This document shows positions 9,688 to 19,486 of a stretch of DNA of 64,000 nucleotides, in pieces. Source of the stretch: a virus; the IMG/VR virus record IMGVR_UViG_3300035145_003993, positions 1-64,000 of that record; one strand, 5' to 3'. The notes beneath the pieces are model-generated. The model was not told where the DNA came from and ran no database searches. It saw only the letters and a list, made by a program, of their open reading frames with translations. A program made the position numbers and the translations under genes. How positions within the stretch are numbered: the stretch's first letter is position 1; every line of letters begins with the position of its first letter.

Positions 9688-10518
9688 TTATTCTCCTGAT
9701 ATTTCTTCTTTTAATTTTCCGATTGTTAAAAATCTTTGAAGATTTTCTTTTGACATATCATTACAATCTAAATCTTTAATGTTATTAACAACAAAGCTAT
9801 ATTTTTCATTTAAAATTTGATTGTTACAATCACTAATATAATTTTCAAGAATATTAATACAAGATATTTTTATTGCATTATATTTATTTGAAAGAGAATC
9901 TTCATTGTCTTTTATAAAAAAAGATATCATTTCTCTTTGCGATTCATTTAATTTAGAGTTATATTTTTTCTCAAACATTTCATTCATAATCTTATATGTA
10001 AGAGAATCAACTTTTTTTGGAATAATATTTTCTTTTATTAATTCTTTTTTACTAGTTAAGCTTTCATGTAATTTAATTTCATATTCAGTTACTTTGTCAA
10101 AACTTGGATTTTTATTTCTCCATTCATTCAACAAAGTCTGAATTGTTGCATATGTTCTATAATTTTTAATTTTTCCTTCGAAAATATTGCCTTTTCCAAA
10201 AGTATAGTTTAAGTCTTTAATTAAAAAGGATTTTTCTTCTTCTAATTTTTTATTATCAAACATATGATTACAAGCTTTTTTAGCTTCATTAATAATTGAA
10301 GTAGCTAAAGTTTCTGAAACATTGGAAGTTTCAGAAAGAGCTTTAAAAAGTTTATATTCTTTAAATAATTGTGTATCTTGCTTAAAATTTTTCTTTATTA
10401 TATTAATTGCAAGTTCGGCGCTTTTTTTATCATCTTCCATTAGTCTTTCACAAACAAAGTTTATAATTTGTTCATATATTATACCAATGTTTCTTTTTTT
10501 ATTATGATTCTTCGCCAT
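9688..10518 (-). CDS. Hypothetical protein between portal and protease genes
   Basis: 276 residues from ATG 10518, chosen because AAGGA lies 8 bases before it. A frame open to 10548 would overlap the portal gene further without a ribosome site. The protein is Lys/Asn/Glu-rich and almost wholly helical, starting MAKNHNKKRNIGIIYEQIIN. It has no motif I can name. T4 has the prohead core genes 67 and 68 at this place, but those are much shorter. A core or portal-associated role is inference from position only. It overlaps the portal stop by 17 bases. Confidence 0.55.
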   Translation of the reverse strand: MAKNHNKKRNIGIIYEQIINFVCERLMEDDKKSAELAINIIKKNFKQDTQLFKEYKLFKALSETSNVSETLATSIINEAKKACNHMFDNKKLEEEKSFLIKDLNYTFGKGNIFEGKIKNYRTYATIQTLLNEWRNKNPSFDKVTEYEIKLHESLTSKKELIKENIIPKKVDSLTYKIMNEMFEKKYNSKLNESQREMISFFIKDNEDSLSNKYNAIKISCINILENYISDCNNQILNEKYSFVVNNIKDLDCNDMSKENLQRFLTIGKLKEEISGE

Positions 10519-12499
10519 TGTTATCTTCCTTGTTTTCAAACATATCATCGTCTATAATTATATCAAAATCTTTGTCATTATTTTCTTTTAATAACTTATT
10601 TTTACTTAAATTTAAAGAATTAGACATTTTTTCTAAATCTTTTGACATTCTATAAGAAAGTTGTCTATCTACAAAATCATTAATTAAAGGACTTTGTGGA
10701 AGAATATTATCTGATAGTGAAGATCTAAAAACATCTTCAGAATTTGCTATTTTTATAGGCTTATTTATTCCACTACCTGATGATAAACCTGGTAAAGTTG
10801 TTTGTGACTTTCCTTTTTTTGATCCTTTTCTTTTAAATTTCCCTCTAGTTTTAGAAACTTTAGAATCAGCTTGGACAGGGTTTTCTTTATCTGGATCAAA
10901 AATATCTTTAGAGTCAAATTCTATTAAGTCATCAAACTCAGATAGATCTTTTTCTGTCATTATATTATTACCTTTTATTTCTCCTGAAAATAGATCTGAA
11001 ACAGGAGATTCATCTTCAACATCTGGGGCAGATGCTCCAGATCCAATGTCACCAGAAGACTGATCTGAGTCATCACCAAATATATCATCTTCAGTTTCTG
11101 GTAATTGTAAACCTTCAAGCTCCATTTCTCGGATTTTATCTTTTTCTCTTCCCATTTCAATTCTTGTAATTTCATCATCATTTAAATCAAGAATATGTTT
11201 TCTAATCCATTCTCTATCAACAAAACCTTCAGGAGCTCCTCCTGCTATTTCAAATTTGGTTCTTATTAACTCCAGTTTTTGTTGTTGAGCAATACTTGAT
11301 GGATTACATAATTTTAATTCAAAGTCTAATATAGATTCATCTGTATATCCGTGTGAATATAAATGAATCATTGCAATTTTATTTAATTCTGAAACTATTG
11401 TTTTTTGTATTCTTTGAATTGTTCTACTAAATCTAACATCTTCTTGAGCTAATGTAGCTTTTGATCCAATATCTTCATCATATCCAAGATATGCTTTTGG
11501 AATTTTAAGAGCTGCAAAAAGTTTCTTTTGAATATATTCAACATCTTCAATAGCTGTTGTATTTGATCCACCAGCCAAAGTATCAATTCTAGTTCCACTT
11601 TCTCCACCTCTTACTGGAAGGAAATAATCTTCATCAACTGATAGTGGATTATATCTTAAATCAACTTGTCCAGTATTTTTATCTACAACAGCATTTCTTT
11701 TTAAAGAAGATTGAGCTTGTTCAAGATAATCGGAAATATTTTCTGGAGGAATATTACCAACATCAATATAAAAAACTCTTCTTTCTGGAGATCTAATTAC
11801 TCTATATACAAGCATTGCATCTTCAATAAGAATTAGCTGACGCCAGACTCTTCGAGCACCTTCTAAAACAGAAGATCCATATGGTAAAAAAGCATCACTT
11901 CCTAAAAGTCTAAAATGAGACACTTGCCAATTTTCTAAAACCCTATTTCCTTGAGTTACCCATCTAAATCTTACAGCCCCTGGATCATTTGGATCAAAAC
12001 CTTCTTCTCTTTCTATTTCTGATATTGGTATTGGAAAAACGTTAACGACACCAAATTCAGGATGAATATCATTAAAAAGAAAAAAGTCTCCATATTTACA
12101 TAAATTTCTAACCCACATAGAAAGATTAAAATCTATATTAAGCGTATCATAAAATAATTCATCTAATATTTTTTTAATCATTCTATTTTCAGAGTAAATA
12201 TTTAAAATATTACCTTCTACATCAGGTGAAGCACATTCTTCAGAGTATATATCTAAAGCAGAAGAAATCTCTGGAGTTCCTTCCATCTCTGAAAAATCAG
12301 AATATCTTGACATTCTATCATATGATCCATAGGCTCTTAAAGTACTATTGTAAACATCACTATGTGCTTTTTTAAATACTTCTAAAGAAGATTTAGAGTA
12401 AGACTCTTTATCTTGTATCTTTTTAATTCTTCTTTTAACTACAGGACCTGATCTAAAAAGGTCTGTTAATTTTTTAAATAAATTATTATTTTCTGCCAT
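10502..12499 (-). CDS. gp20: Portal vertex protein, T4 gp20-like
   Basis: 665 residues. The first about 480 carry the gp20 pattern: EMEGTPEISSALDIYSEECA, the strand-helix NLCKYGDFFLFND, VSHFRLLG, the stem segment AMLVYRVIRSPERRVFYIDV, then LRYNPLSVDEDYFLPVRGGE and AALKIPKAYLGYDED. The region after about 480 is acidic, low-complexity and longer than in T4 gp20 (524 residues), with a KRKGSKKGK basic patch. Twelve copies form the ring through which DNA enters. It starts 4 bases after the TerL stop. The extended tail may contact the scaffold core or terminase. Confidence 0.92.
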   Translation of the reverse strand: MAENNNLFKKLTDLFRSGPVVKRRIKKIQDKESYSKSSLEVFKKAHSDVYNSTLRAYGSYDRMSRYSDFSEMEGTPEISSALDIYSEECASPDVEGNILNIYSENRMIKKILDELFYDTLNIDFNLSMWVRNLCKYGDFFLFNDIHPEFGVVNVFPIPISEIEREEGFDPNDPGAVRFRWVTQGNRVLENWQVSHFRLLGSDAFLPYGSSVLEGARRVWRQLILIEDAMLVYRVIRSPERRVFYIDVGNIPPENISDYLEQAQSSLKRNAVVDKNTGQVDLRYNPLSVDEDYFLPVRGGESGTRIDTLAGGSNTTAIEDVEYIQKKLFAALKIPKAYLGYDEDIGSKATLAQEDVRFSRTIQRIQKTIVSELNKIAMIHLYSHGYTDESILDFELKLCNPSSIAQQQKLELIRTKFEIAGGAPEGFVDREWIRKHILDLNDDEITRIEMGREKDKIREMELEGLQLPETEDDIFGDDSDQSSGDIGSGASAPDVEDESPVSDLFSGEIKGNNIMTEKDLSEFDDLIEFDSKDIFDPDKENPVQADSKVSKTRGKFKRKGSKKGKSQTTLPGLSSGSGINKPIKIANSEDVFRSSLSDNILPQSPLINDFVDRQLSYRMSKDLEKMSNSLNLSKNKLLKENNDKDFDIIIDDDMFENKEDNNGEES

Positions 12500-12502
12500 G
12501 TT

Positions 12503-14137
12503 TTATTTTCCTACTAACCAACTAAGATCTCCAAAAGGATTATTTTTTGTTGGTTTATTATTTTTTTTACCACTAAAATTATTTTGTGGCATAAAAACAG
12601 GTACAAAAGGATTCACACTGTTTTGTTTATTATTATAAAAAGGAGAAACAGCAGTGTTACTAATATTTGTATTATTTACTTCCATTCCTTTTAAAATAGC
12701 ATCTGCTTGCTGCATTTGAGTAACATTATAAGTATTCGAATTACTATCTGCTAACCAGCATCCTATAGCTAAAGACATAATTAAGTCGTCATTATAACCT
12801 TTCATTGCAGTTATTTTTTTACCATTCCAGATAAAAGTTTTTAATTCTGAATATAGTCTTTGTGAATATGACTTAATTCTTCCGTTTCTTAAACTTTCTT
12901 CAAGGTTAGCTAATATTTTATCTCTACTCTCTTTAGAAGTAGTAAATCCAGCTTTAGCTATATTATTTGCATCTCCGTACAAATATTGATACTTTTCTTT
13001 TTCTTTTGAAAAGTATATATTTTTATAACCTAATTCTGCTAATTTAACTAGCATTGTATATCCATACGCATTATTTTCAGGACAAACCATAGCATTATAA
13101 AATCTTTTAGATATGTCATATACTAAAGATGCAAATTGATCAGGTGGTATTTTTCCTTTAAATTCGCAAGCAATTGACATATCTTTGTTATTAATAACAT
13201 GGAATGCTGAATAGTCTCCACTATCACCACGTGCAATATCGCATGACATAGTATAAGTAACAGATTCAATTGGATATTCCCAATACCAAACATTGTTTCC
13301 GGGCCCGCTTTTTTCAATCGGACTCTTTGTTAGAACTCTTAAATTTTCTAAAACGTCATTAGATAAAAAAGTATCACCTGAAGATGCGAAGTCACATAAA
13401 AGCTCTTGAGAAACCTGCTTTTTAGACATATTTTTAGTTTCTTTATCAAACCAATCATCGTCTCTTTCCGGGTGAACATCCCACATTAACTTAATAGGAT
13501 TAAATTTATTTTCTTTTCTTTCAGCCTTTGTATATATTTCATGATATTGTCCACCAACACCATTAGGTGTTGATAACAAAATAGCACGTCCACCTGTTGA
13601 TAGTGTAGGATAAAGACCCATCCATAATTCGTCAAAATTTCTTACAAAAGCAGCCTCGTCTACAATTAACAAAGAAAGAGCTTCAGAACGACCTGCATCT
13701 TCAGATGTAGGTACAGCTTTAATTTGTGATCCATTTGAGAATTCAACTTGTTGCTTGTTATTAGCAGTGATTACTGGAACTAATAACCATTTAGGCATTG
13801 ATTTTATATACGTTTTTACTTTTCTAATAAAGTTTTGTGCAACTGCTAATTTAGTAGCAATAATAAGAATGTTTTTTTCTTTATAAAAAACTGCTTGCCA
13901 AACAGCATAAGCAGCAACTAATGTTGACAATCCTAACTGACGAGATTTTAAAATAATGTTAAATCTATGATCATTAAAATCTTTTACACAATCATCTTGA
14001 AAAGGAAAAGTATTAAATCTAATTAATCCTTTTAAAGGGTGTTGGATTTTAAGGTATCTATTCATAAAATAAACTGGGTCTTTACCACATTTAATTATTT
14101 CTGAAATTTGACCATTTTTTGATTTAACATTAGCCAT
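12503..14137 (-). CDS. gp17: Terminase large subunit, T4 gp17-like
   Basis: 544 residues. ATPase domain: Walker A SRQLGLST (65-72), Walker B LSLLIVDEAAF (154-164, Asp160 and catalytic Glu161) and the coupling motif ILLSTPNGVGG. Nuclease domain of RNase H fold: SCDIARGDSGDYSAF (first Asp near 298), CPENNAYG, and GYNDDLIMS near 449 with the last acidic pair. It cuts concatemeric DNA and drives packaging through the portal. Length fits the family (T4 gp17 is 610). Unlike T4, genes 18 and 19 do not follow; the portal gene comes next. Confidence 0.95.
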   Translation of the reverse strand: MANVKSKNGQISEIIKCGKDPVYFMNRYLKIQHPLKGLIRFNTFPFQDDCVKDFNDHRFNIILKSRQLGLSTLVAAYAVWQAVFYKEKNILIIATKLAVAQNFIRKVKTYIKSMPKWLLVPVITANNKQQVEFSNGSQIKAVPTSEDAGRSEALSLLIVDEAAFVRNFDELWMGLYPTLSTGGRAILLSTPNGVGGQYHEIYTKAERKENKFNPIKLMWDVHPERDDDWFDKETKNMSKKQVSQELLCDFASSGDTFLSNDVLENLRVLTKSPIEKSGPGNNVWYWEYPIESVTYTMSCDIARGDSGDYSAFHVINNKDMSIACEFKGKIPPDQFASLVYDISKRFYNAMVCPENNAYGYTMLVKLAELGYKNIYFSKEKEKYQYLYGDANNIAKAGFTTSKESRDKILANLEESLRNGRIKSYSQRLYSELKTFIWNGKKITAMKGYNDDLIMSLAIGCWLADSNSNTYNVTQMQQADAILKGMEVNNTNISNTAVSPFYNNKQNSVNPFVPVFMPQNNFSGKKNNKPTKNNPFGDLSWLVGK

Positions 14138-14559: not shown

Positions 14560-14823
14560 TTATTTATTAGGACGCCACCCATTATTCCATTTTTCTTTAT
14601 TATGGTAATAATATAAATCATAACATATTTCACACAAATTACTTTTCTTAAGACATTCGACATCTTCTACAGTCGATATTAATTTTTTACAAAAACTGCA
14701 ATCTAGAGGTAAAGGTTGATCTCCTATAGGTCTAATAAATTTAACACCATTTAAAATAGTTTCTTCTTCGTTATTGTCTATTTTTTCCCATTTTTGATTA
14801 AGAACAGAAGACATAAGAGTCAT
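14560..14823 (-). CDS. Small zinc-ribbon-like protein
   Basis: 87 residues from ATG 14823, which has AAGGA 6 bases upstream; the frame is open to 14844 and another Met lies at 14814. Two Cys pairs, LDCSFCKK and LCEICYD, 18 residues apart, form a probable zinc-binding site, followed by YYHNKEKWNNGWRP. The N-terminus overlaps the end of the Mre11-Rad50 gene by 26 bases. Small proteins of this plan recur in marine T4-like phages without known function. Confidence 0.6.
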   Translation of the reverse strand: MTLMSSVLNQKWEKIDNNEEETILNGVKFIRPIGDQPLPLDCSFCKKLISTVEDVECLKKSNLCEICYDLYYYHNKEKWNNGWRPNK

Positions 14824-17800
14824 TTCCTTTCCTTGAAATTTCAATATTTTTATCTACTATATCTTTAATAGAATCAACATGTGATATAACTAAAATTGTT
14901 TTAAAGTATTTTTTAAGACTGGTTAACAATCTAGAACAAGCTTCAATATTTGAATCATCCAATGCACCAAAACCTTCGTCAATTATAAAGATATTTGATT
15001 TTGGTAATGATGATATATTAATTAAAGCGACTCTTATTGCAATAGAAGTAATCATTTTTTCCATTCCACTTGCACACTCTATTATTCTTTTTGAATCACC
15101 GTAGTCTATATAAACATTTAAGTTTGTCCCGTCATCTTCTAAATTGATTTTGAATGTAGCAACGCCTGAAAGGATTTTGTTAATTTCGTTATTAATAAGT
15201 GGTAAACTATTATTAATAAGCATAGTAGGGATTCCTTTTTTGGATATTGCGTAAGAAAACAAATCGAAAGTTTTCCATGAATTTATAAGACTATAATAAT
15301 CATTTTTTTCTTTATTTAAAATTTCAATTTGACTTTCTAAAACGAATATATCTTTATTGTTTTTAATAATAGAGTTATCATAATCATATATGTCAGAAGA
15401 TATGTCGTTTAACGTTCGTTTTAACTTTATTATCTCGTTATTTAAATCATCATTTGTGATATCTTTAATTTCATCTCTTATAATCTCTAACTTTTTTATT
15501 TTTTCTTTGTTTGATTCTAATTTTTCTTTTGTATAAGATATTTTTTCATTGTTTCTTTCAATATCAATATTAGTTTTATATTCTTTATTTAAAAGATCAT
15601 TAAATTTCTTTATTTTTTCTTCTAAATTTTCTTTTTCGATTGATTTAATTGCTGATGATATTTCAATCATGTCAATTTCAATTTTTCTTATTTCTTTATT
15701 TAAACTTTTAATATTATCTTTAGAACTATAAGCGTCTTTAATAAACTTACAACTAGAAAATGATTCATCACATGGAACTTCTTCTAGTATTTTTAAACTA
15801 TTATTGTTTCTTTTTAATTCTTCATTAATAAATAATTTATTTCTTTTAACATTATTAAGTTTAATTCTTAATTCATCTAATCTCGATTTATCTTCTTCTA
15901 AATTTTTAATAGAATAATTTTTCTTAAAATCAGAAATTTTTTCTAAAAAGTTTTTATTACTTTCTAACTTGTTTTCAAAATCTAAAATATTACTTTGATC
16001 TGAATCAAGTCTATTATTTAGATAATTTATTTCATTAGTAATTTTTTCTAGTGTATATCCTGATGGGTGTTGTTTATTTTGTTTTTCTAAATTAGAAATT
16101 TTTACTTTAATATTTACTTCTTTTTCTCTTAATTCAGAAAGATTAAACTTTATTTTTTCTGTAAGATTTTCTAATTCTAATATTTTATTTTTAGATTGTG
16201 TAATTAAATCTTTCCAATTTTTTTCTTCTAGATTTTTATGTTTATTTTTTAAAATAACATAATCTTCTCGAGATTTTTTATAAAGCTCTTCATATAGATC
16301 TAGTTTTAAAAATTTGGTTAAAACAGATTTTCTTGCACTAGATTTTTCTTTTATAAAAGTATTCATTTCACCTTGTGAAGCAAAAGAAGTATAAAGAAAG
16401 TCTTCTGACGTTCCGAATAAACTTCTAATAGTCTTTTCAGTTTCTCTTCTCTGTTCTTCAGTTTCATTTAATTCTTCACTATCTTGATAATTTTTTAAAA
16501 CTAAATTTGTTGTTGAAGATATTTTTCCATTTTTACTAGAATTTTTTACTGTTGATCTTTCAATTTCATATTTTGATTGTCCTAATGATATTATTGCTTT
16601 AGCTTTACAACTTCCTTTTCGTGTATTAATAATATTTTGATTTTTAATAGAACCTCTATCTGTAGAGTTGAATAGACAATACATTAATGTTCCAGGAATA
16701 GAAGATTTTCCTGCTCTGTTGTTTCCAAACAATCCAACAACACCTTCTAAATTATCAAAGTTTATTAAATTATTTTTTCCATAAGAAAAAGTATTATCAA
16801 AATTTAATTGATGTATTGACCAATTTGTATTATTACTCGAAGATATTTCATCGGGTATTTGATCTAAATAATTTTCAAATAAGTTATTAACCTTTATTGT
16901 TTCATCTTCATCAATTACTTCACCAAAAAATTCTTTGAGTAAAGATTTTCGATTTTTTTTATTTCTTATATTAAAAGACTTAGATTTTTCTTGACTTATA
17001 GAAGAAAGATCTATATTGTTTTTACCAGTATTTTGATAAACAATTTCTTTAGCCTTTTTTTCTTCTTTAAGATAATGATGTAATAAGCGAATTTCTACTT
17101 GTGTAATATTACTGTTAGATCTAATTCTAAATCTAGATTCTTTTTTGATTTTTTCTAAAAAAGGAAGCGTGTTTTCAACAGAACCTTTCCAGTCTACTGT
17201 AATAAAAGGATGTGGATTATCAATAGGTATAAATTTACTTTTATAATCGTTTGAATTATTTATTTCCCATAAAAGATAACCTTTTTTAATGTCTTCACCA
17301 TAGTTTTGTTGTATGGTTGATCCTGGATAAGCAACTTTTTTTTCTGGATCTAGATATTGAAATTTGTGTATATCGCCTAGAAATGTGAATTCATAATCTT
17401 CAAAAAAGTTTAAACTTACTTCTCCTTCTAATTCCCAATCAATATCAGTTTTTGATCCCCATACTGCACCGTGAAAACAAGCAATATTAATTTCGCCAGG
17501 AATTGGTTTTACGCTATTCCAGTTTTCTTCATCAAAGCAAGAAAAAACGCACCAATTAAATCCTTTAATTCCCGTTGGATAAGTTCCACTATCTTTGTAA
17601 AGGTAAATATTTCTATTATTTAGTGCATTTATTAATGGTGTAATTGCATCTTGCCTATCTTTATTTAGAATAAGTCCATCATGATTTCCGAGAATTATAT
17701 GTGTAGGAGCAATCTCTGATAAGCTATTAAACCACCAAATTAAATGATCAATTATTTCAGGAGATATTCCTTGTGTCTTAGAATGAACAATGTCACCACC

Positions 17801-17929
17801 AATAAAGATAATATCAGGTTTTTCTTCTTTTAAACTTTTAAAAAGTTTTTTAAAAACAGTTTTATATTCATCATGCCTTTTAAGGCCCCTCCAATGAATG
17901 TCTGATATGTGTGCGCATTTAAAAGTCAT
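14798..17929 (-). CDS. Single-chain Mre11-Rad50 (gp47-gp46-type) nuclease/ATPase fusion
   Basis: 1043 residues. Residues 1-about 360 form a Mre11/SbcD/gp47 phosphoesterase: HISDIHW (Asp10, His12), GGDIVHSK (Asp46), LGNHDG (Asn82, His83), CFHGAVW (His153) and LGDIHK (Asp186, His188). From about 367 follows Rad50/SbcC/gp46: Walker A GNNRAGKSS (near 400), two long coiled-coil arms, a hook region CDESFSSC near 719-726, an ABC signature variant CASGMEKMITS (near 950), Walker B IFIIDEGFGALDD (near 980) and the H-loop VISHVDS. In T4 these are two genes, while here one frame covers both with no stop or internal gene boundary visible. It would process DNA ends for recombination-dependent replication. 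The downstream Zn-ribbon gene overlaps its end. Confidence 0.93.
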   Translation of the reverse strand: MTFKCAHISDIHWRGLKRHDEYKTVFKKLFKSLKEEKPDIIFIGGDIVHSKTQGISPEIIDHLIWWFNSLSEIAPTHIILGNHDGLILNKDRQDAITPLINALNNRNIYLYKDSGTYPTGIKGFNWCVFSCFDEENWNSVKPIPGEINIACFHGAVWGSKTDIDWELEGEVSLNFFEDYEFTFLGDIHKFQYLDPEKKVAYPGSTIQQNYGEDIKKGYLLWEINNSNDYKSKFIPIDNPHPFITVDWKGSVENTLPFLEKIKKESRFRIRSNSNITQVEIRLLHHYLKEEKKAKEIVYQNTGKNNIDLSSISQEKSKSFNIRNKKNRKSLLKEFFGEVIDEDETIKVNNLFENYLDQIPDEISSSNNTNWSIHQLNFDNTFSYGKNNLINFDNLEGVVGLFGNNRAGKSSIPGTLMYCLFNSTDRGSIKNQNIINTRKGSCKAKAIISLGQSKYEIERSTVKNSSKNGKISSTTNLVLKNYQDSEELNETEEQRRETEKTIRSLFGTSEDFLYTSFASQGEMNTFIKEKSSARKSVLTKFLKLDLYEELYKKSREDYVILKNKHKNLEEKNWKDLITQSKNKILELENLTEKIKFNLSELREKEVNIKVKISNLEKQNKQHPSGYTLEKITNEINYLNNRLDSDQSNILDFENKLESNKNFLEKISDFKKNYSIKNLEEDKSRLDELRIKLNNVKRNKLFINEELKRNNNSLKILEEVPCDESFSSCKFIKDAYSSKDNIKSLNKEIRKIEIDMIEISSAIKSIEKENLEEKIKKFNDLLNKEYKTNIDIERNNEKISYTKEKLESNKEKIKKLEIIRDEIKDITNDDLNNEIIKLKRTLNDISSDIYDYDNSIIKNNKDIFVLESQIEILNKEKNDYYSLINSWKTFDLFSYAISKKGIPTMLINNSLPLINNEINKILSGVATFKINLEDDGTNLNVYIDYGDSKRIIECASGMEKMITSIAIRVALINISSLPKSNIFIIDEGFGALDDSNIEACSRLLTSLKKYFKTILVISHVDSIKDIVDKNIEISRKGNDSYVFCS

Positions 17930-17937
17930 ATTATTCC

Positions 17938-18921
17938 TTAAAGCATTGCTATTTTTGTTAATAGTAAATCGTTTTCTTTGTATTCTTTAGCACTTTCATA
18001 ACTTTCTTGAAACTGTAAGAAAGTCATATCACCAACATCTTCAGCAATCCTAGTATCTAGGATTTTTACTTCAATATCAAATTCTTTTAATAATTTAGCA
18101 ATTTTTAAAGTTTTAAAATAAACATCTTTGTCTAAAGCAAGATAAACTTTAGTTTTATTTTCTACTATTTTCTTAAAAAGTTTCATGTCGTATGTTAATG
18201 ATGACCCTAATAAACAAGTTGCATTATCATTGGTTTTTAATAAATCCAAAGGTCCTTCAACCAAAGTAAGAGGTTTTTTCCAATCTATATTTAATTCATT
18301 AAAAATAATATTTTTCTTAGATACCGATGCATTTTTATATTTAATCGGACTTGATGAATCAACATCTATTTTACGTGATGTATAAAAATTTATATTACCA
18401 TTTTCATCGAAAGAAGGAATTATTAAACTTCTTGAGTATTCTTGATTTAAAGAACAACCTAGTTTTAAAAACCACATTTTATGTTTATTAATTCCTCTTT
18501 TTATAACATATTTAAAAACGTCGCGAATATCTGGGTGTCTAGAATTAAATTTATTTGCTAATAACATAAAACCTTCAGGTAAAGTTACAATTTCTTCTTC
18601 TTCTTCACAAATAGGTTCACCAAATAAATTTATATTAAAATCATTATTCGATGATTTCTTTTTAAATAATTTTTTAGCTTCTTGAACTTTATTTTTATTT
18701 AATTTACTTACAATATAAGAAACGTCAGATCCTTTTTTATCACATAACCAACAGTGATAAAAATTCTTTTCAAGATGGATTGCTAATTTTAGTTTGCTTT
18801 TATTATCATGTCGACAAAATGGACACCAAATACTAATATTGAGTCCGTCTTTTGATAACTTAGAATAACTTGTTATATTTTCTATAAAGTATATTTTATT
18901 ATTTATGTTTGATTCTTTCAT
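17938..18921 (-). CDS. gp61: DnaG-type DNA primase, gp61-like
   Basis: 327 residues. An N-terminal zinc finger has CPFC (Cys33, Cys36) and CWLC (Cys57, Cys60) with a beta hairpin between. The Toprim core has LTLVEGPLDLLK (catalytic Glu near 221) and YLALDKDV (Asp pair near 262). Length is close to T4 gp61 (342). It makes RNA primers for the lagging strand, in T4 together with helicase gp41, which is not in this window. The gene overlaps the end of the RuvC-like gene by 23 bases and is followed after 8 bases by the Mre11-Rad50 gene. Confidence 0.88.
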   Translation of the reverse strand: MKESNINNKIYFIENITSYSKLSKDGLNISIWCPFCRHDNKSKLKLAIHLEKNFYHCWLCDKKGSDVSYIVSKLNKNKVQEAKKLFKKKSSNNDFNINLFGEPICEEEEEIVTLPEGFMLLANKFNSRHPDIRDVFKYVIKRGINKHKMWFLKLGCSLNQEYSRSLIIPSFDENGNINFYTSRKIDVDSSSPIKYKNASVSKKNIIFNELNIDWKKPLTLVEGPLDLLKTNDNATCLLGSSLTYDMKLFKKIVENKTKVYLALDKDVYFKTLKIAKLLKEFDIEVKILDTRIAEDVGDMTFLQFQESYESAKEYKENDLLLTKIAML

Positions 18922-19486
18922 TATAAAGTGCTGCCTTACAAATTACATAAGCGTCAGACATATCATAACAACAATCATCAAATTTTACACTTCCTTTATT
19001 AGGTCCTCGTGACAAAATCCTTTCAGGCCATTCAAAAATAAAATTATTTTTCTTAAAGTCTTCTTTTACCCAATCAAAAACTTGTTCTTTAGTATTCTTA
19101 TCTAGTTTTTTATTTAATTTAATTCCTAGGTTTTTTCTAGCACTATTAACATTTATATAGTCTGGAACAACTGAATATACTTCAGATGCAATGTAAGAAA
19201 CAATACCATTAAACCTATTTAGTTGTGACAAAGTCTTTGCTGAAGAAAATCCTTTACTGAATGATTGAAAACTTTCTTCTATACTTAGATTAATATCTTC
19301 TTCAAAGAAATATTTTTCTTTATAACTTGTAAAACTATCTTTAACTATTTTAGACTTATTAAAAATACATGATAGCTTCTTTAAATTAATATTCTCTAAA
19401 TTTATTAAATCTCCATTTAAATCTAATAAAGATACTCCAATTATTGAAGTAGATATATCTAAACCAATATATTTTACTCTGTTCAT
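18899..19486 (-). CDS. RuvC-like Holliday junction resolvase
   Basis: 195 residues with an RNase H-like fold. YIGLDISTSIIGVSLLD gives the first catalytic Asp (Asp10), LSIEESFQSFSKGFSSA the second acidic residue (Glu near 71), and DDCCYDMSDAYVICKA the C-terminal Asp pair. Phage RuvC-like enzymes resolve branched DNA before packaging; T4 uses the unrelated gp49, so this is a functional replacement by inference. The ATG overlaps the stop of the previous tail gene (TAATG). It starts the DNA-metabolism block. Confidence 0.8.
   Translation of the reverse strand: MNRVKYIGLDISTSIIGVSLLDLNGDLINLENINLKKLSCIFNKSKIVKDSFTSYKEKYFFEEDINLSIEESFQSFSKGFSSAKTLSQLNRFNGIVSYIASEVYSVVPDYINVNSARKNLGIKLNKKLDKNTKEQVFDWVKEDFKKNNFIFEWPERILSRGPNKGSVKFDDCCYDMSDAYVICKAALYNERIKHK

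Follow-up and report, generated by a model that had tools for sequence, protein, structure and literature searches.

The window analysed here, a stretch of 64,000 nucleotides (positions 1 to 64,000 of the IMG/VR virus record IMGVR_UViG_3300035145_003993), holds a long reading frame in which a first-pass annotation had recognized an Mre11-type nuclease together with a Rad50-type ATPase. The locus raises the question of whether the two enzymes are genuinely made as one polypeptide and, if so, what such a protein would do for the phage that carries it.

Mre11 and Rad50 share a single reading frame

The minus strand of positions 14798-17929 forms one uninterrupted open reading frame of 1043 codons with a single stop, preceded by an AGGA ribosome site 5 nt 5' of the ATG, while the plus strand of the same span is rich in stops. 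Residues 4-189 of the product match Metallophos (PF00149) with 51 bits (cut-off, 21.5), AAA_23 (PF13476) scores above its cut-off at 16166-16807 (minus strand), and the SbcC-like profile phrog_77 covers residues 279-1040 with an E value of 1.6e-50. In a sequence search, the same chain matched both solved Rad50 and solved Mre11/SbcD chains. Both domain assignments are confirmed, far beyond chance. Within the 211-kb record, which is linear and not proven complete, no other Mre11-type gene and no convincing second Rad50-type gene were found; the fusion is the only Metallophos match and the only AAA_23 match above cut-off. A weak second P-loop match was observed in a 266-aa frame (G000:C1:130924-131403), with RecA and AAA_23 below cut-off (E = 9.8e-4 for AAA_23).

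A frame of this kind could in principle be produced by an assembly error or a frameshift joining two adjacent genes. This explanation is refuted, and an artefact can be dismissed for practical purposes, because the same full-length frame occurs in more than 100 related contigs from many assemblies, among them the genome sequences of phages Mel-JY01 and pT24. Against a 98%-identical copy (L002), dN/dS is ~0.04 over the whole gene. The two copies are separated by 119 synonymous and 25 non-synonymous changes; dN/dS is ~0.1 at the Mre11/Rad50 junction, and dN is low in the Mre11 core. The gene is under purifying selection. A first scan for relatives returned 45 loci and a second at least 585 confirmed stretches. 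Among the loci read, 110 are full-length single-frame fusions (98 distinct, the window copy included), and nearly all the remaining loci are cut off by contig ends. The homologous proteins have ~1040-1200 residues, with nearly invariant catalytic and ATPase residues. The arrangement is therefore neither an assembly artefact nor rare, and the covalent joining of Mre11 and Rad50 proposed from the sequence is confirmed as genuine by the profiles, PDB matches, structure model and 110 homologues.

Domain architecture of the fusion protein

An AlphaFold2 model of the monomer was built from 33 homologues (mean pLDDT, 79.9; pTM, 0.48), and domain borders were read from its secondary structure. When the model was searched with Foldseek, the best PDB match was Rad50 (7zr1), followed at lower ranks by an SbcD nuclease with its cap (7dog) and a chain of the E. 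coli SbcCD complex (7yzo_A), so that the Rad50 and the SbcD nuclease-plus-cap folds were both recovered. All features described below lie on the minus strand. The Mre11 nuclease core, supported by the model and the PDB matches, spans residues 3-246 (17192-17923) and carries the DxH, GDxxH, GNHD, HG, and GDIH motifs. It is followed in the model by an alpha-beta-alpha-beta capping domain (residues 251-300; 17030-17179), consistent with the 7dog match, by a flexible stretch (residues 301-323), and by a predicted Rad50-binding helix-loop-helix (residues 324-355; 16865-16960) placed as in the Thermotoga maritima complex described in PMC3175470. The model thus bore out the earlier expectation that a cap and Rad50-binding helices would lie between nuclease and ATPase, but the region then taken as linker (about 260-365) consists mostly of these elements and the flexible stretch. 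According to the model and the alignment, the real inter-domain linker comprises only the 13 residues 356-368 (16826-16864), and its length is nearly constant, at 11-16 residues, across 110 homologues.

The first ATPase lobe of Rad50 (residues 369-560; 16250-16825) contains the Walker A motif GNNRAGKSS (402-410) and the Q-loop residue Q519. In the model, it leads into an ascending coiled coil (residues 561-717; 15779-16249), which is separated by the hook from a descending one (residues 731-895; 15245-15739), and the chain ends with the second lobe (residues 896-1043; 14801-15244), which holds the signature SGMEK (954-958), the Walker B motif IIDE (982-985), a D-loop, and H1017. The bipartite ABC ATPase motif set (GNNRAGKSS, Q519, SGMEK, IIDE, ALDD, and H1017) is present and near-invariant; the signature reads SGMEK, not SGGE/Q, in nearly all homologues. 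Judged by these motifs, the Rad50 half is complete, as had been claimed, and it is short-armed.

Could the two halves nevertheless act separately in vivo, either through internal initiation or through proteolysis in residues 301-323 or 356-368? The model assigns low confidence to residues 303-317 and 363-365, which are probably disordered and could be cleavable. However, the frame is unbroken across the linker region in all 110 homologues, and the only breaks found among relatives lie inside the Mre11 core. Codons 1 to 416 hold no in-frame ATG after the start, and the sole alternative start between codons 180 and 416 is a TTG at codon 400, within the first Rad50 beta-strands. Separate production of Rad50 from an internal start was rejected because no usable start precedes its P-loop, and the strong internal start that would have spoken against a fused product is thus missing from this stretch of the gene. 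Separately acting halves are, overall, very improbable.

An aspartate in the metal site and an unusual hook

The first-pass annotation had stated that all the usual Mre11 metal ligands are visible, and this holds for seven of the eight ligand and catalytic residues, which are identical to those of Mre11/SbcD (D10, H12, D46, N82, H83, H153, and H188). The exception is the first His of the GHxH motif, corresponding to the metal ligand His206 of Pyrococcus furiosus Mre11, which is replaced by Asp186 in the GDIH motif (17372-17374). Aspartate occupies this position in 110 of 110 aligned sequences, and the same change is described for Mimivirus R555 (Asp242; PMC3175470), whereas the histidine is kept in T4 gp47 (GHFH) and E. 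coli SbcD (GHIH). Activity or metal preference may, on this basis, differ from that of cellular Mre11. Taken further, the universal replacement, its recurrence in R555, and the retention of His in gp47 and SbcD could indicate that the protein serves chiefly to tether DNA or as an ATPase that holds ends, its own nuclease being weakened or altered, and that it bridges DNA ends or feeds them to another nuclease. We regard this as rather unlikely: the remaining ligands, and His83 as the catalytic residue, hardly vary among the 110 homologues, and dN is low in the nuclease core. Because Asp can bind Mn too, the change need not mean that activity is lost.

A second departure from the familiar pattern is seen at the tip of the Rad50 arms. 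In the alignment and the model, the hook (residues 718-730; 15740-15778) carries two conserved cysteines at the apex between the coils, spaced as C720-x6-C727 in place of CxxC. In a sample that is skewed toward close relatives by the way it was collected, this spacing (PCGDxFPxCKFI) was found in 102 of the 110 sequences and is contained in 3 more (105/110); CxxC occurs in 4 (L047, L048, L124, and L126) and C-x3-C in 1. No description of a C-x6-C Rad50 hook was found in the papers searched, whose coverage is incomplete, and hook spacing is not discussed in the 2011 study of fused proteins by Yoshida, Claverie and Ogata (PMC3175470). Together with the metal-ligand change, the unusual hook poses small questions about how tolerant the Mre11-Rad50 complex is.

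Relationship to known fused and split systems

That the fusion itself would be new, as the first-pass annotation implied, does not stand: Yoshida et al. described this class in Mimivirus R555, Bacillus phage 0305phi8-36, a Deferribacter megaplasmid, a Clostridium kluyveri plasmid, and metagenomic homologues that are abundant in aquatic viral metagenomes beside phage-type primases (PMC3175470). Those fusions share with ours the domain order (Mre11 N-terminal, Rad50 C-terminal), the cap, the helix-loop-helix, and the short linker; R555, compared here by its description in that paper, also shares the change of His206 to Asp. Their metagenomic members lay on short scaffolds, whereas the present gene stands in a 211-kb phage record with TerL, portal, and RuvC genes, linking the metagenomic "R555-like" genes of 2011 to large T4-like phages in which a RuvC-primase-TerL cassette is conserved. 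A 2021 survey of jumbo phages treated SbcC/SbcD as nearly universal. The fusion is therefore largely ordinary; only for the spacing of the hook and for the fractured relatives described below was no account found in the literature searched.

Single-frame Mre11-Rad50 proteins with a CxxC hook are also encoded by Microcystis phage Mel-JY01 (annotated "AAA domain containing protein," with an adjoining primase), by a 735-kb uncultured phage, and by Tenacibaculum phage pT24 (1310 aa; L152:4492-8424; annotated "metallo-phosphoesterase"). Overall identity to the window protein is 24-29% for Mel-JY01 and the 735-kb phage; pT24, with its named bacterial host, is a possible experimental handle. T4 gp47/gp46 are the same two enzymes, with similarly short coiled coils, and T4-type structural genes are common to both phages, but gp47 and gp46 have separate genes, two small ones lying in between, and have GHFH rather than GDIH and a CPTC hook (in gp46). 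E. coli SbcD/SbcC share the fold and motifs (7yzo and 7yzp) but are separate subunits with GHIH, a CPLC hook (in SbcC), and longer coiled coils. A 24-row tree placed all 20 sequences that are fused or fractured on one side, opposite 4 split references (100/99), and T4 gp47/gp46 showed no specific relationship to the fusion. With few split rows and long branches, the tree provisionally fits a single ancient fusion event in these phages.

Genomic context and proposed role

The fusion gene lies in a compact order of minus-strand genes: a RuvC-like Holliday junction resolvase (18899-19486), a DnaG-type primase immediately upstream of the fusion (17938-18921), the fusion, a 94-aa protein, a 122-aa protein, the T4-like terminase large subunit (TerL; 12503-14137), and the portal protein (10502-12499). 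The 94-aa product (14560-14844) is a small zinc-ribbon-like protein with two CxxC pairs, has no Pfam or PHROG match, and overlaps the end of the fusion gene if a TTG start is used. Of the 102 loci in which the position could be tested, 92 have the primase directly upstream of the fusion; the 94-aa protein lies directly downstream in 83 loci, and TerL was found in 120 of 130 loci. The full record has 211,364 bases and encodes RecA elsewhere. TerL is ~40% identical to its best match, that of Flavobacterium phage immuto, which has T4-like head proteins. A split Mre11/Rad50 pair after the primase of phage immuto was considered and rejected, as the translated genes are not these. The phage carrying the fusion is a large T4-related marine tailed phage.

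We infer the nuclease activity, dimer geometry, and pathway role of the protein from its families and its gene neighbourhood. Most probably, it is a single-chain SbcCD/gp46-47 machine that resects or opens the ends of phage DNA to serve packaging and recombination driven by RecA. The N-terminal nuclease would dock through the helix-loop-helix on the coiled-coil root of its own Rad50, in cis, given the short linker. Dimerization of two chains would follow, with contacts at the Mre11 core, between the ATP-bound Rad50 heads, and at the cysteine hook, and would yield the usual M2R2 clamp. It had been suggested that the fusion fixes a 1:1 stoichiometry and could make the protein dimerize head to head through the hook. 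The first point stands, but the second is unsupported, since separate Mre11 and Rad50 already form M2R2 via the Mre11 dimer, the ATP-bound heads, and the hook. ATP cycling by the clamp would open phage DNA ends that are blocked, hairpinned, or broken, trimming them to 3' tails, which the phage RecA and the neighbouring RuvC and primase could use for recombination-dependent replication; branched DNA would be cleared before the adjacent terminase starts packaging.

According to their annotation, T4 gp46/47 are needed for host-DNA degradation as well as recombination, and the main role of the fusion could likewise be host-DNA degradation or counter-defence instead of phage DNA end processing. The two roles are not exclusive, but the primase/RuvC/terminase cassette points to replication and packaging, and we consider host-DNA degradation or counter-defence unlikely to be the main role. 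Naturally made as one chain, with short arms and the two enzymes in a fixed 1:1 ratio, the end-processing machine proposed here could suit structural work.

Fractured relatives

In two distant relatives, L040 (IMG/VR) and L049 (the 484-kb phage LR756508), mre11-rad50 is split directly behind GDIH[KR], within the Mre11 core (L040:1259-5423; L049:1501-5726), and the fragments flank a Cys-rich endonuclease-like ORF. In L049, a stop and a start overlap, and the interposed ORF has a TnsA-like nuclease domain; that of L040 has no Pfam match. The first fragment ends in both cases in a similar tail with ELxxYLxxGW. The break in L040 is derived, because L040 is sister to the intact gene L022 in the tree. 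The interposed ORF is a putative homing-endonuclease gene. Two other causes of the split were rejected: (i) a group I intron, as there was no Rfam match and little room is left for a ribozyme where essentially only the ~30-residue tail and the endonuclease-like ORF separate the fragments, and (ii) an intein, as no splice residues were recognisable. Two exact-pattern scans for further fractured copies found only the contig of L040 itself, and a search with the endonuclease ORF of L040 matched, besides that ORF, a single distant relative located elsewhere.

We found no literature description of fractured mre11-rad50 genes. A parallel is offered by NrdA of phage Aeh1, split by mobE (PMC2988022), where an endonuclease gene within an essential phage gene likewise leaves two polypeptides needing reassembly; the parallel concerns the split relatives only, in which the gene broken is mre11-rad50 and the break falls inside the Mre11 core. 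It is tempting, though doubtful, to see these phages as a clade with a distinct single-chain Mre11-Rad50, in which the enlarged C-x6-C hook and the Asp metal site would make for another kind of apical joint and a shift in catalytic tuning, and whose gene would be a homing-endonuclease target, cut in the nuclease core yet serving in relatives as a trans-reassembled enzyme.

Two further observations were made. On a 286-kb Bacteroidales MAG contig, RuvC-like and primase-like genes are followed by a ~280-aa Mre11-like ORF with GHIH (L146:6001-6834), after which no Rad50 part was recognised; this is possibly a remnant or a recoded phage. The contig of L079 carries, a few kilobases downstream of an intact fusion gene, an ORF related to the L040 endonuclease ORF (L135:4001-4843).
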